64,000 nucleotides of DNA from Spirosoma spitsbergense DSM 19989 (GTDB taxonomy: Bacteria > Bacteroidota > Bacteroidia > Cytophagales > Spirosomataceae): positions 3,155 to 67,154 of the forward strand of contig NZ_KB893570.1 in NCBI RefSeq assembly GCF_000374085.1. The letters run 5' to 3'. Positions within the stretch are counted from its first letter, which is position 1. Every line of letters starts with the position of its first letter. The position numbers and the translations under genes are program-made. The notes beneath the pieces are model-generated. The model was not told the DNA's origin. It worked only from the letters and a program-made list of their open reading frames with translations, and did not search any database. Shown piece by piece: positions 43,640 to 47,785 of the stretch.

Positions 43640-43664
43640 AAGTCTTATAGAACGAAAGGACATG

Positions 43665-43672
43665 CAAAAATA
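43665..43672 (-). promoter_or_regulatory. -7 box of the small membrane protein gene
   Basis: Minus-strand TATTTTTG fits TAnnTTTG and sits 26 bases upstream of ATG 43639. No -33 TTG at the right spacing. Confidence 0.4.
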
Positions 43673-43791
43673 AGGTAAGAAAACGGTTAGGTTTGGCATT
43701 TAAAACTCAGTTTGAAAGATTCTTGCGTAGCAATCAATCCAAAATTGGTAGATTTGGACTCTCAGTTTATACAAACCAGTCACCGTTTAGA

Positions 43792-44706
43792 ATGACCTTT
43801 CCCGACCTCAAAAAATATACTTTCTCTGGCCATGACAGCTTTCAATGCCGATTGTTATGGCTCAAGAAAGGCTACGATTACCTACTCAATGAACATTCCT
43901 TTGCTGCCGACGACGCTCCCGTTCGGCTGGGCGTTGGCAACAATATGGTGCGCTCCATCCGGTACTGGCTACGCGCATTTGGCCTGACCGACGAGGACGA
44001 GAAACTCACCAAATTAGCGCACTTGCTCTTCGATAGCCAAACCGGCTTCGACCCTTTTCTGGAAGACCAGGCAACGCTTTGGCTATTGCATAGGCAGTTG
44101 CTCATTACCCGCCATGCGTCAACGTACTGGCTCATCTTTAACGAGCTGCGCCGTCGCCGACCCGAATTTGCGGTCGATGATTTCGTGCAGTACGTAACGA
44201 AAGTAAAGGCGGAACAGGAAAAATTTACGGCCAATGCCGACACGCTTGCCAATGATTTCAAGGTGTTTACTAAGTTATACATTCAGGGCGGGCGGCAGGC
44301 TAAAGATCGCGAAGAAGGCTTTGCCGGAATCCTTACCGAACTCGATCTACTTAAACCATTGGAACGCAAAGCAGACGATGGCAAGTCGCTCGGTACGGTA
44401 TATTCCATTCCGCTGACTGACCGCGCCGACCTGCCCGCCGAATTAATCCTTTATTGCCTGCTCGATACACCCGGCCTGAGCCTTTCCATTAACCTCGAAA
44501 CCCTTGAAACGGAGCCGGATATGCCCTGCGCGGTGTTCGCGATGAACCGGGCCGGTCTATTACAGAAGATCGATCAACTTACCGACCGATACCCTAACCT
44601 GCTCATTTATAGTGATCAATCTGGTGTGCGTGAACTCCAGTTCAAAGAAAAGCCGACCGACAAATTCCAGATTCTCCGCGATTACTATGTCCCAGCCCTT
44701 GTTTAA
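43792..44706 (+). CDS. DUF4007 family protein (defence-island associated)
   Basis: 304 residues from ATG 43792 (MTFPDLKKYTFSGHDSFQCR); the frame is open back to a TTG at 43693 but without family resemblance. FSGHDSFQCRLLWLKKGYDY and VRLGVGNNMVRSIRYWLRAF are the DUF4007 landmarks. DUF4007 genes occur next to PAPS-reductase-like, P-loop ATPase and BrxL genes in BREX type 4 and phosphorothioation-type islands. Its biochemical role is unknown. It is intact here. Its last 20 bases overlap the start of the ATPase remnant, so the two were translationally coupled. Confidence 0.88.
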   Translation: MTFPDLKKYTFSGHDSFQCRLLWLKKGYDYLLNEHSFAADDAPVRLGVGNNMVRSIRYWLRAFGLTDEDEKLTKLAHLLFDSQTGFDPFLEDQATLWLLHRQLLITRHASTYWLIFNELRRRRPEFAVDDFVQYVTKVKAEQEKFTANADTLANDFKVFTKLYIQGGRQAKDREEGFAGILTELDLLKPLERKADDGKSLGTVYSIPLTDRADLPAELILYCLLDTPGLSLSINLETLETEPDMPCAVFAMNRAGLLQKIDQLTDRYPNLLIYSDQSGVRELQFKEKPTDKFQILRDYYVPALV

Positions 44707-44983
44707 CCAGTCGGTCAATATTGTTCGTAATGCCGATCGGACGCTGACCTATTATCCAACCGACAACACCCGGCGCATTGTATCGCAACTGCTTACCGAT
44801 TACCATGCGGGATTGAGGGCTTTTACGCTCATCAGTTCGTACGGCACGGGTAAAAGCGCGTTTTTAACGAGTGCCAAAACCCGCCGTCGGCGCATGTCGG
44901 GCCTCTATGAAATACTATCAAAATCGCCCTTTCGACTAAAACAGGAGTTACGTCTGAAACGCAAGAGTTATGCAACTTCCTGA
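44687..44983 (+). pseudogene. truncated P-loop ATPase, BrxC-like N-terminus
   Basis: The ATG at 44687 (MSQPLFNQSVNIVRNADRTL) opens a reading frame with a Walker A motif, ISSYGTGKSAFLTS, at residues 49-62. After about residue 62 the sequence becomes basic and stops at 44983. The start resembles large (over 1000-residue) ATPases next to DUF4007 in BREX type 4-like clusters. Only about 60 residues remain, so a large internal deletion is likely. Just after the break another frame reads PKPAVGACRASMKYYQNRPF and stops at 44939, which looks like the end of a different gene joined at the deletion point. Inference only. Confidence 0.7.
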
Positions 44984-46067
44984 TAGCGAACGCTTAGACG
45001 TTGCTAAACTCTCGTCGGCGTTTTCGAACACGACCAATTCCTACAAGTTTTACTGGTTGCTCGCCATTCTAGATTGCCTAGCTGAAACCGGGCAAACGCA
45101 GCTTTCCATGCGGGATTTATCACTACGTATGGTGGCTATGGTCTGGTATCCACTTGATTATTTCAAACTCTCGTTTGGCAAGCAGGACGGTTTTAAACCG
45201 ATTGCCGATTACGTTTCTCAACTCCTGACAGTTGATAATAGCACGAACGCGCCAACCTTGTTCCTGCAACTGCAAAGCCGTCTTACCAATGCCGAATTAG
45301 AGCAGGTTTACCGGAAAGTCAAGATTCTACTTGATTGGGTACCGTATCGGTTTATCCGCCCGTTTTTCGCGCAGGAAACACGAGGTTTACTTGACTACAA
45401 AGTCAATAACCAAATTGTTGAATTAGCTAATAAGAGCCAGGATGCACCGTATCGTTTCTTGGGAGAGTTCATCGAGATAAATGAAGATTGGGCTGCCTAT
45501 TTTAGCCGCCACCTATTCATTTTGCGAGGTTTCACGTGCTGGCATCTGGTTCGGTTTCTCCAGAAAAACAACCCAAACGTAACGGGTCTAACCGAGAAGT
45601 TAGATAAACCTGCCGAACGGGATTTAAAACAGGCCGGGCGTTTCTGGAAAGGTTATCTAGCCGAGAATCCGGGTATGTCGTGCATCTATTCCGGTCAGGC
45701 AATTACGACCTCGAATCTGAGTCTTGACCATTTTCTACCCTGGACGTTTGTAGCCCACGACCAGCTTTGGAACATCGTTCCAACCCCAAAATCGGTAAAT
45801 TCAGCTAAAAACGATTGGTTACCTTCATTGGACTTATACTTTGATCGATACGCCCAACTTCAACACAAGGGGTTTAGTTTCTACGTTAAAAAGGGCAATC
45901 AAAAAATTCTGGAAGATTATCACGTACTATTCGCTCAAAACGTAGAATTTATTCGGCAACAATCGTTTACAGATTTTAAAGAACGGTTGGCACGTCAGAT
46001 AATGCCGCACCTGCAAACGGCACAGAATCTGGGCTTTTCGCACCCGTTCATCTACAAAAAGCCGTAA
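44970..46067 (+). CDS. HNH endonuclease domain protein of the defence remnant
   Basis: 365 residues from ATG 44970; the start MQLPDSERLDVAKLSSAFSN with NTTNSYKFYWLLAILD is typical of a large HNH protein family found in defence clusters. The HNH core is CIYSGQAI at residues 238-245 with the unusual single Cys-x2-Ser in place of Cys-x2-Cys, then LSLDHFLPWTFVAHDQLWNI (Asp253-His254) and SVNSAKNDWLPS. The protein seems full length. The missing second Cys means the zinc-binding pair common in HNH ribbons is not formed. It overlaps the ATPase remnant by 14 bases and ends 23 bases before the methyltransferase-HIT gene. Confidence 0.8.
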   Translation: MQLPDSERLDVAKLSSAFSNTTNSYKFYWLLAILDCLAETGQTQLSMRDLSLRMVAMVWYPLDYFKLSFGKQDGFKPIADYVSQLLTVDNSTNAPTLFLQLQSRLTNAELEQVYRKVKILLDWVPYRFIRPFFAQETRGLLDYKVNNQIVELANKSQDAPYRFLGEFIEINEDWAAYFSRHLFILRGFTCWHLVRFLQKNNPNVTGLTEKLDKPAERDLKQAGRFWKGYLAENPGMSCIYSGQAITTSNLSLDHFLPWTFVAHDQLWNIVPTPKSVNSAKNDWLPSLDLYFDRYAQLQHKGFSFYVKKGNQKILEDYHVLFAQNVEFIRQQSFTDFKERLARQIMPHLQTAQNLGFSHPFIYKKP

Positions 46068-46090
46068 ATCCACAAAACCTGAATAGCCAC

Positions 46091-46918
46091 TTGACCGCAA
46101 AACAGCGCGATGCCCCATCGCTGCCGGTTCGTATGCTACACGAACGGCGGTTGCTTCGGGGAACGGTTCTGGATTACGGTTGTGGCTTCGGGCAGGATGT
46201 TCAATCTTTGCGAACTAAAGGTTTCGACGCGGACGGCTATGACCCGCATTATTTCCCTGAAATCCCCAGTCACAAGTTCGACACAATTGTCTGCTTCTAC
46301 GTCCTGAACGTTCTATTCCCCAATGAGCAAACCGAAGTGATGATGAACATTTCTCGGTTGCTTAAGCCTACTGGCCGGGCGTACTTCGTGGTTCGGCGCG
46401 ACATTCAGCGCGACGGATTCCAAACGCATCAGCTACACGGCAAACCGGTTTATCAATGTTCGGTTACACTACCCTTCACATCCATTTTTCGGAACGAAAA
46501 CACTGAATTTTACGAGTATCAGCATTTCAACCAGTTGCAAAACCGGTACGAAACTTGCCCTTTCTGCGTCCCGAAGCCAAAACTTAAACTGTTGGTCGAG
46601 ACAACACAGAGTTACGCCGTACTGGATGGCTACCCCGTCAGCAAGGGCCACGCGCTAATTATGCCTAAAACGCATACCGTCAACTTTTTTGATTTGCCGT
46701 TTGCTAAACAAATGGATAGCTGGCTAGTAGCCAATAAAGTTCAGGAAATGTTAACCAAACACTACGCGCCGGATGGTTTTACGGTGGGCCTGAACATTGG
46801 TGCGGCAGCAGGGCAAAAATTCCCGCATGCAAGTATCCACATCATACCACGCTACACAGGTGACGTAGTGAACCCAGGTGGCGGAGTTCGCAACGTGATT
46901 CGTAAGAATCTGTGGTAA
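46091..46918 (+). CDS. methyltransferase-HIT domain fusion protein
   Basis: 275 residues from TTG 46091; an ATG at 46133 would remove the first 14 residues. The N-terminal part is a SAM-dependent methyltransferase with TVLDYGCGFGQDVQSL (residues 25-40) and FDTIVCFYVLNVLFPNEQ, close in style to the methyltransferases of phosphorothioation islands. From about residue 155 (CPFCVPKPKLKLLVETT) there is a HIT domain with YPVSKGHALIMPKTH. The HIT triad reads His246-x-Ser248-x-His250 instead of His-x-His-x-His, so the usual nucleophile is replaced by Ser. The two domains may work as a nucleotide-handling and methylating unit. In the same frame, directly after the TAA, the BrxL remnant begins. Confidence 0.85.
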   Translation: MTAKQRDAPSLPVRMLHERRLLRGTVLDYGCGFGQDVQSLRTKGFDADGYDPHYFPEIPSHKFDTIVCFYVLNVLFPNEQTEVMMNISRLLKPTGRAYFVVRRDIQRDGFQTHQLHGKPVYQCSVTLPFTSIFRNENTEFYEYQHFNQLQNRYETCPFCVPKPKLKLLVETTQSYAVLDGYPVSKGHALIMPKTHTVNFFDLPFAKQMDSWLVANKVQEMLTKHYAPDGFTVGLNIGAAAGQKFPHASIHIIPRYTGDVVNPGGGVRNVIRKNLW

Positions 46919-47748
46919 CAAGCTAAGTACACTTGTAAATCGTTATCGTTCGGGCAGTTTTCGCGTTACTCCCGGCTCATCGAAGGCGGGGCCGTGTCGC
47001 CCGCCGTATTGTTTTACAACGAGAACACTAAAGTACCGGGACTATTCACGCAGTTCGATATTGTGGTGTTTGATGAAGCACAAACGCTGTCATTCAGCAG
47101 CCCCGACGAGACCGTTGCCAAACTGAAAGGGTATCTCGAACAGGGAAAATACTCGAAGGGTAAATTTACCGTTTCTGCCGATGCCGGTGCGGTTTTCATT
47201 GCTAACGTACAATTACCCCGCAGGGCGTACCAGTTCACCCCAATAACCTCTTCGGCGAATTACCCACGATTTTACAGGAATCGGCCCTGCTCGACCGGAT
47301 TCACGGCATCCTACCAGGCTGGAACCTGCCCCGGCTCAGCACCGACGCCCTATCGAAAGGCGTTGGATTAAAAGCCGATTACCTCGGCAAAATTTTCCAT
47401 GCCTTTCGCTTCCGCATCGAGTATGACAAGTTTGTGGAAGAACGCGCCTACCGCATACATTCGAAAGACCTGCGCGACGTGCGGGCCATTCTAAAGTTGG
47501 CATCGGGCTTTCTGAAACTACTTTTCCCTGATTTATCGACCGCTACCGAATCCGAATTTGTGCGGTATTGTCTCGAACCCGCCGTTGCTCTGCGCCAGCG
47601 ACTCCGTGACCAGCTACATTATTTAGACCCGGAGTTCCCTAACTACGAAATCCTCATCAACCCCGAAGCTGCACCAAATGAAGTACACACGGCAATCTCT
47701 CTCGAAGAACCTGCTGAAGATTCGGAAGTGTTGGATACTAGTGCGTAG
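46919..47748 (+). pseudogene. BrxL-like (Lon-related AAA) gene, N-truncated and frameshifted
   Basis: From 46937 the plus strand reads SFGQFSRYSRLIEGGAVSPA, then IVVFDEAQTLSF (Walker B) and LKGYLEQGKYSKGKFTVS, characteristic of the BrxL AAA domain. The Walker A and N-terminal half are missing. Near 47210-47214 (CAATT) one base appears lost: the frame changes and continues as TPQGVPVHPNNLFGELPTIL, DRIHGILPGWNLPRLS and RAYRIHSKDLRDVRAILKLA up to the stop at 47748. Frames 2 and 1 join exactly with a one-base deletion. The protein is thus broken twice. BrxL is a DNA-binding AAA motor of BREX and similar defence systems. Confidence 0.8.
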
Positions 47749-47785
47749 AGAATGACAGCTTACAGAATTAAGCAGATCAATTTTC

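Follow-up and report, generated by a model that had tools for sequence, protein, structure and literature searches.

The BREX type 4 systems, as laid out in the main text of PMC12839542, combine a PAPS reductase/DUF4007 component with BrxC, PglZ and BrxL, often together with a cysteine desulfurase, and the same text includes stand-alone HNH domains among the BREX accessory nucleases. For ScoMcrA, an HNH enzyme that cleaves phosphorothioate (PT)-containing DNA, the relevant sections of PMC3009677 report no coexistence of the enzyme with a PT writer, and loss of the dnd island in 10/10 exconjugants examined in Dnd+ S. lividans. Here we analyze a block of genes at positions 43792 to 47748 of a 64,000-nucleotide stretch of the Spirosoma spitsbergense DSM 19989 genome (contig NZ_KB893570.1; the whole stretch is hereafter the window). 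This block, almost certainly the remnant of a PT-linked island, retains an open gene for an HNH nuclease followed by one for a methyltransferase (MTase)-HIT fusion protein, behind a collapsed gene of the SspBCD writer. Similar losses recur in front of related HNH genes, and the retained unit is the HNH-MTase/HIT duo, not a trio that includes DUF4007.

Composition of the Spirosoma block

All five parts that the first-pass annotation had recognized in a row (DUF4007, an ATPase N-terminus, an HNH protein, an MTase-HIT fusion, and a frameshifted BrxL without its N-terminal half) are matched by profiles, and all are encoded on the + strand in this order. The first one (43792..44706, + strand) is an open frame for a DUF4007/SspB protein that matches PF13182 over positions 1-288 of 288 (E 2.3e-69), as a DUF4007 component of BREX type 4 should, as well as the PADLOC SspB profile (E 6.4e-95), and that departs from 3 of 40 columns conserved at >=85%. 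It is followed by a stub of the SspC/BrxC ATPase (44690..44983, + strand), identified both by profile and by alignment with a related genome (G002), where the SspC open reading frame (ORF) is intact (1,116 aa), the beginning of SspD follows, and DUF4007 is 80% identical to that of the window. The stub matches positions 2-49 of 1039 of the SspC model (E 2.7e-18); the earlier reading of this ATPase as its first 60 residues is accurate for approximately 60 codons, which are not the sole piece, given that about 29 later SspC codons follow in frame. Compared to G002, the gap amounts to 1,944 bp, that is, 648 codons, in frame, with the junction near 44858-44863 and a 6-bp microhomology (GCGTTT) at both ends, so that an internal deletion has left the block without the complete SspC of an SspBCD writer. 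The stub ORF overlaps the start codon of the HNH_4 nuclease (44970..46067, + strand; PF13395, E 5.2e-9), an open frame, as is the subsequent class I MTase-HIT fusion (46091..46918, + strand; PF13489, E 1.4e-11; PF01230, E 4.3e-17). The latter passes directly into BrxL (46919..47748, + strand), with no PglZ of the BREX type 4 kind in between. Only the C-terminal half of BrxL is present, from about residue 254, and it matches PF13337 in two pieces and two frames (model positions 74-172 and 222-311 of 313), with a single frameshift that falls between about 47225 and 47257; both pieces (~286 codons) are free of stop codons, and the complete BrxL of BREX type 4 is lacking.

Neither a PAPS reductase nor PglZ is encoded in the block, judging by the ORF list and by the Pfam and PADLOC profiles. 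The island has lost SspD and PglZ entirely, the greater part of SspC and one half of BrxL, in agreement with the earlier claim that the reductase, PglZ and most of the ATPase are missing, and SspB, HNH and MTase-HIT are still open, as also claimed, with the qualification that MTase-HIT lacks the start codon of its relatives. Profile searches, which had been proposed as a check on the two fragments, assign them to SspC and PF13337, and the identification of DUF4007, a BrxC/SspC-type ATPase and BrxL bears out the view of the block as a BREX type 4-like, PT-linked remnant. The best explanation of the block is that a PT-writing island of Ssp/BREX type 4 composition was acquired horizontally and then reduced by deletions. 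The DUF4007 genes of the window and G002 differ by 0.158 nonsynonymous (dN) and 1.28 synonymous (dS) substitutions per site; most of this divergence may predate the decay.

The insertion (43640..47782, no strand assigned) was delimited by blastn and tblastn comparison with the syntenic locus L147 of genome G028, where the same site spans 51 bp compared to 4,143 bp in the window, and both the smpB and the uvrA sides are aligned (three pieces, 85-90% nucleotide identity). Given that the G028 site is empty and syntenic, the block is a true insertion. It is bordered by smpB and uvrA, as the first-pass annotation had it, except that a gene for a 150-aa membrane protein lies between smpB and the block. 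Of the smpB loci in 57 genomes, 30 were inspected, including that of the window; among the other 29, G028 alone has the membrane-protein gene within 1.5 kb of smpB. No intact island at this site, which had been anticipated as support for decay, was found in the 30 loci.

A search of the whole genome of this strain found no SspD, and the match to DndC is confined to 32 residues of a 54-aa ORF, far from a complete DndC; therefore, no PT writer is detectable. On contig C8 (L159:9596-10762, G000:C8), about 20 bp separate this N-terminal dndC stub from a downstream, intact HNH_2 nuclease, the N-terminus of which matches the sulfur-binding domain (SBD) SBDHga1 (8h0l, E 2e-10); a DndA-like cysteine desulfurase is encoded farther along, on the other strand. 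In G017, a relative of this SBD-HNH nuclease is located within 20 bp after a full-length dndC. Thus, the window genome has twice kept a PT-linked HNH nuclease behind a collapsed PT-writer gene.

Recurrent loss of writer genes in front of the HNH gene

One scan of 84,980 species genomes identified 62 HNH loci, distributed over Bacteroidota, Chloroflexota, Planctomycetota, Cyanobacteria and other groups, of which 61 were counted after a duplicate of the G009 locus was dropped. These loci were chosen through HNH itself, and neighbors were called from stop-to-stop ORFs using profiles that were trained on few sequences and covered neither DndB nor DndE. At least one PT-system gene is present in the available flank of 26/61 loci (17/33 of those with at least 5 kb on both sides), and MTase-HIT in 28/61. 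The neighbors include SspB, SspC, SspD, PglZ, BrxL, SspFGH, DndC, DndD and DndFGH. L100 has the complete arrangement SspB-SspC-SspD-HNH-MTase/HIT, as does L074 except that its SspC ORF is split; together with L112 and L090, these loci place HNH after a complete or contig-long SspC/SspD.

In 12 loci (the window, L046, L056, L058, L063, L071, L078, L079, L082, L095, L113 and L115), SspB, SspC or SspD without its end or middle is located at most 0.8 kb upstream of HNH, on the same strand. The breakpoints differ. DUF4007 is kept to approximately residue or profile position 32 (G017/L046), 33 (L078), 63 (L079), 72 (L063) or 173 (L071); SspC to approximately 110 (L082), 287 (L058), 522 (L056) or 729 (L115), in addition to the ~60 codons and further piece in the window and a gap from about 97 to 912 in L113; and SspD to about 78 (L095). 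In L046, L071, L078, L079 and L082, the frame of the cut gene ends 2-18 bp ahead of the HNH start. On the HNH tree, 11 of the 12 loci (that is, without L113, in which HNH is split) require 9 label changes, at least 6 of these forced by supported branches; since a label change may also reflect later loss of a stub, these numbers bound the label changes and do not count deletions. Eight of the 12 loci depend on metagenome assembly or on the quality of a draft, namely seven from metagenome-assembled genomes (L058, L063, L078, L082, L095, L113, L115) and one from an uncultured lineage (L071); G017, L056 and L079 are strain genomes. Both L095 and L113 start at a contig end. L050 and L073 were left outside the 12 because they contain only the C-terminal part of SspC and no SspB, the 5' side being lost, and L087, with an SspC ORF of 933 aa, was left out as doubtful.

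As a check on choosing loci by HNH, 390 Cytophagales genomes were searched for DUF4007, which is present in 43. The sole match that covers only the N-terminus (G406:C3, profile positions 1-65) lies in front of an HNH-MTase/HIT pair; this is one case, in a search which stubs of ~30 residues would escape and in which the G103 gene is merely split. The proposal that the trio DUF4007, HNH and MTase-HIT had been kept for another use stands in part: HNH persists, mostly with MTase-HIT, but DUF4007 itself is cut in other writer-less loci (G017, L063, L071, L078 and L079).

The stand-alone pair and its link to writers

A strong HNH match (E <=1e-48) is present in 30 of the 390 Cytophagales genomes, a few of these matches being in pieces or with a stop. 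DndC (>=270 bits) was detected in 20 and SspD (>=175 bits) in 41 of the 390, together 61. Writer-positive genomes make up 10/30 of the HNH carriers (odds ratio 3.0, p 0.015), and neither DndC nor SspD was detected above these thresholds in the remaining 20/30. Thus, HNH is enriched in genomes with writers, yet in most carriers no writer was detected.

In six species of one genus (L193, L194, L197, L202, L203, L204), the pair is located at the same site, right after atpG (ATP synthase gamma); one of these species (G085) has SspD elsewhere. For the closest two species, dN is 0.070 and dS 0.921 in HNH (dN/dS 0.076), and 0.086 and 0.992, respectively, in MTase-HIT (dN/dS 0.087); in all comparisons with finite dS (10/15 for HNH, 11/15 for MTase-HIT), the ratios are below 0.13. 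Therefore, the pair is constrained without an adjoining PT island. For the HNH and MTase-HIT of the window and their relatives, dN is 0.18-0.26 and dS is saturated or at least 2.5, hence no ratio. HNH and MTase-HIT probably form an unnamed module that is functional in the family.

The HNH nuclease and the MTase-HIT protein

The HNH family comprises 1,732 protein clusters at E <=0.001, of which the best 120 were examined. The active-site residues D253, H254, N268 and N277 of the window protein are invariant in 52/52 family members; every family-invariant residue is kept, with no departure from 79 conserved columns. The PDB matches of the HNH part are Cas9 HNH domains, in line with a Cas9-type active site, the spacing of which we take to equal that of SpCas9. 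The N-terminal half, possibly a winged helix, shows no profile match to 28 SBD-HNH proteins, but judged by a structural comparison it may still contain an SBD. The family matches none of the PADLOC profiles for SspE, SspF, SspG or SspH. HNH itself is broken in L079, L113 and G009.

The same genome encodes a second HNH_4 copy, 64% identical and without MTase-HIT, beside two serine-recombinase-like genes (L047:11420-14451, G000:C11); its relative in G009 (L048) has similar neighbors and an in-frame TAG. A phage link was considered and rejected: the viral collection gave 50 pattern matches and one confirmed relative (33% identity, L207:395-3575). This relative adjoins a ribosome-protection-type GTPase and DNA methyltransferases, a context that is more like an integrated element than a phage.

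The start codon used by relatives of MTase-HIT (e.g., in G017), nine codons upstream, is missing here (window positions 46064-46091), and the next start, TTG, is nine codons later, inside the conserved N-terminus. The first 75 residues match TIGR04096, a model for PT-associated methyltransferases, with 57.9 bits against a curated cutoff of 150, and all 31/31 MTase-HIT proteins scanned match this model locally. The glycine motif of the MTase is kept in 48/48 members, whereas the HIT triad degenerates: all three histidines are present in 25, the middle one is replaced by S, T, A or G in 17, and 6 are different. A (D/N)PPY-type motif of DNA methyltransferases was not found when the MTase-HIT sequence was inspected by eye. 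In catalytic HIT hydrolases and transferases, the central histidine of HxHxHxx is the nucleophile; the window protein has HxSxH. HINT1 is described, in the part of PMC8775712 that concerns it, as converting nucleoside thiophosphates to phosphates with release of H2S. The idea of the HIT domain as a phosphorothioate desulfurase is weakened for the window by the serine in place of the central histidine.

MTase-HIT as a replacement for the writer was likewise not supported: it is present in 10/15 loci with a broken writer and in 5/14 with an intact one (p 0.14), with no signal in independent pairs on the tree. These automatic labels are coarse (L087 counts as intact despite its short SspC, L090 as broken though the contig ends, and L111 as intact through an SspH-like ORF alone), and 9 loci with less than 1.2 kb after HNH were left out. 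In three loci (L050:10850-11398, L073:8157-8795 and L170:2616-3167), a KptA/Tpt1-type RNA 2'-phosphotransferase is encoded between HNH and MTase-HIT; a gene for RNA repair would not be expected in a PT-linked operon.

Explanations of the pattern

A nuclease directed against unmodified DNA could not outlive the protective writer without a substitute, and one directed against modified DNA can; the ScoMcrA precedent, as far as the sections of PMC3009677 cited above go, points in the same direction. We therefore prefer, with a confidence just short of even, a modification-dependent nuclease module in which MTase-HIT helps or restrains HNH and which survives the loss of the PT writer or selects for it. 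The substrate, gating and anti-phage effect of the pair can be pictured conditionally. HNH would cut modified DNA, PT being the first candidate, and MTase-HIT would help or restrain it. As long as the writer is present, the nuclease would have to be held in check; should this check fail, writer-deleting cells would survive, and the nuclease would stay as a type IV-like restriction module. The pair would then be a defense module that does not need a PT writer of its own. That it still functions at the window locus seems to us evenly balanced, and modification dependence of the cleavage, taken separately, is possible but doubtful. A bolder version, which we consider unlikely, is that HNH_4-MTase/HIT might be an unrecognized PT-system effector that turns on its own writer: the PT-sensing nuclease would repeatedly select for deletion of SspC/SspD (dndC in the SBD-HNH case) and then be kept, expressed from the old ssp operon stub, as free-standing restriction against PT-bearing or otherwise modified DNA.

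The alternative that survives best is plain recent decay, whereby an Ssp/BREX type 4 island was acquired, pieces were deleted, and DUF4007, HNH and MTase-HIT are open for lack of time. Several observations favor it and weigh against the preferred explanation: BrxL, which is clearly dead, has only one frameshift and no stop in ~286 codons, and thus is mostly open itself; the start codon of MTase-HIT is gone; zero disablements in 944 codons would be only mildly unlikely (0.09) under decay; and HNH is broken in the three cases indicated above. Nevertheless, the window HNH departs from 0/79 conserved columns, other lineages show similar outcomes, and the stand-alone pair is under purifying selection, so that we judge recent decay to be a rather less probable account.

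A restriction-modification swap would likewise account for survival without a writer: HNH would cut unprotected DNA, from which PT once protected the host, and MTase-HIT would now supply the protection, making the PT writer dispensable. The two genes overlap in many stand-alone loci, and the invariance of the MTase glycine motif next to a degenerating HIT triad is in the spirit of this model, which nonetheless appears quite improbable, considering that the link between MTase-HIT and broken writers is not significant, that both PT genes and MTase-HIT are missing from the available flank of several HNH loci, and that no (D/N)PPY-like motif is apparent. A mobile cassette inserting into ssp genes, with the stubs as insertion points, could explain the many different SspB, SspC and SspD breakpoints beside the pair and the serine recombinases adjoining the second HNH copy, but it is very hard to reconcile with the missing 3' halves of the cut genes, which were not found downstream, and with L074, L100, L112 and L090, which show the very order from which deletions give stubs. 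An assembly or sequencing artefact, although the genome is a 237-contig draft, is scarcely credible given several independent rearrangements, one with a microhomology junction, and flanks syntenic with G028.

If the duo is indeed an effector that outlives its writer, a repeatable course of evolution would connect PT-based defense with type IV restriction, the broken look of some PT loci would find an explanation, and an uncharacterized nuclease family would have a first function to test. The broken loci serve as natural experiments on which PT-island genes can go together and which stay.

Comparison with known systems

The window array shares with BREX type 4 the DUF4007 protein and the remnants of an SspC/BrxC-type ATPase and BrxL, and differs in the lack of PglZ and the PAPS reductase and in the broken state of the ATPase and BrxL; in L056, L082, L115 and L095, this HNH is encoded upstream of PglZ and BrxL. 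The stand-alone HNH domains of PMC12839542 may include this family; the terms HIT and KptA are absent from its main text, supplements aside. From the SspBCD systems with SspE or SspFGH effectors, the window retains SspB, and in L100 and L074 the HNH-MTase/HIT pair occupies the place of the effector after SspB-SspC-SspD, but the HNH family matches none of these effectors in PADLOC. The methyltransferase model TIGR04096 covers the first 75 residues of the window MTase-HIT, at a score below its cutoff as given above, and the rest of the protein is the HIT domain.

The SBD-HNH type IV enzymes ScoMcrA and SprMcrA resemble the HNH_4 protein in the combination of an N-terminal half with a C-terminal HNH and in the linkage to PT genes, and the same genome retains a true SBD-HNH downstream of its dndC stub; the N-terminal half of the window HNH, in contrast, has no profile similarity to these proteins. 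PT-linked HNH effectors as such are already known, among them SspE, DndI and the SBD-HNH enzymes. In the literature searched, mostly at the level of abstracts and outside subscription papers and supplements, the specific HNH_4-MTase/HIT pair, its stand-alone form and its recurrent place behind cut writer genes are unnamed.
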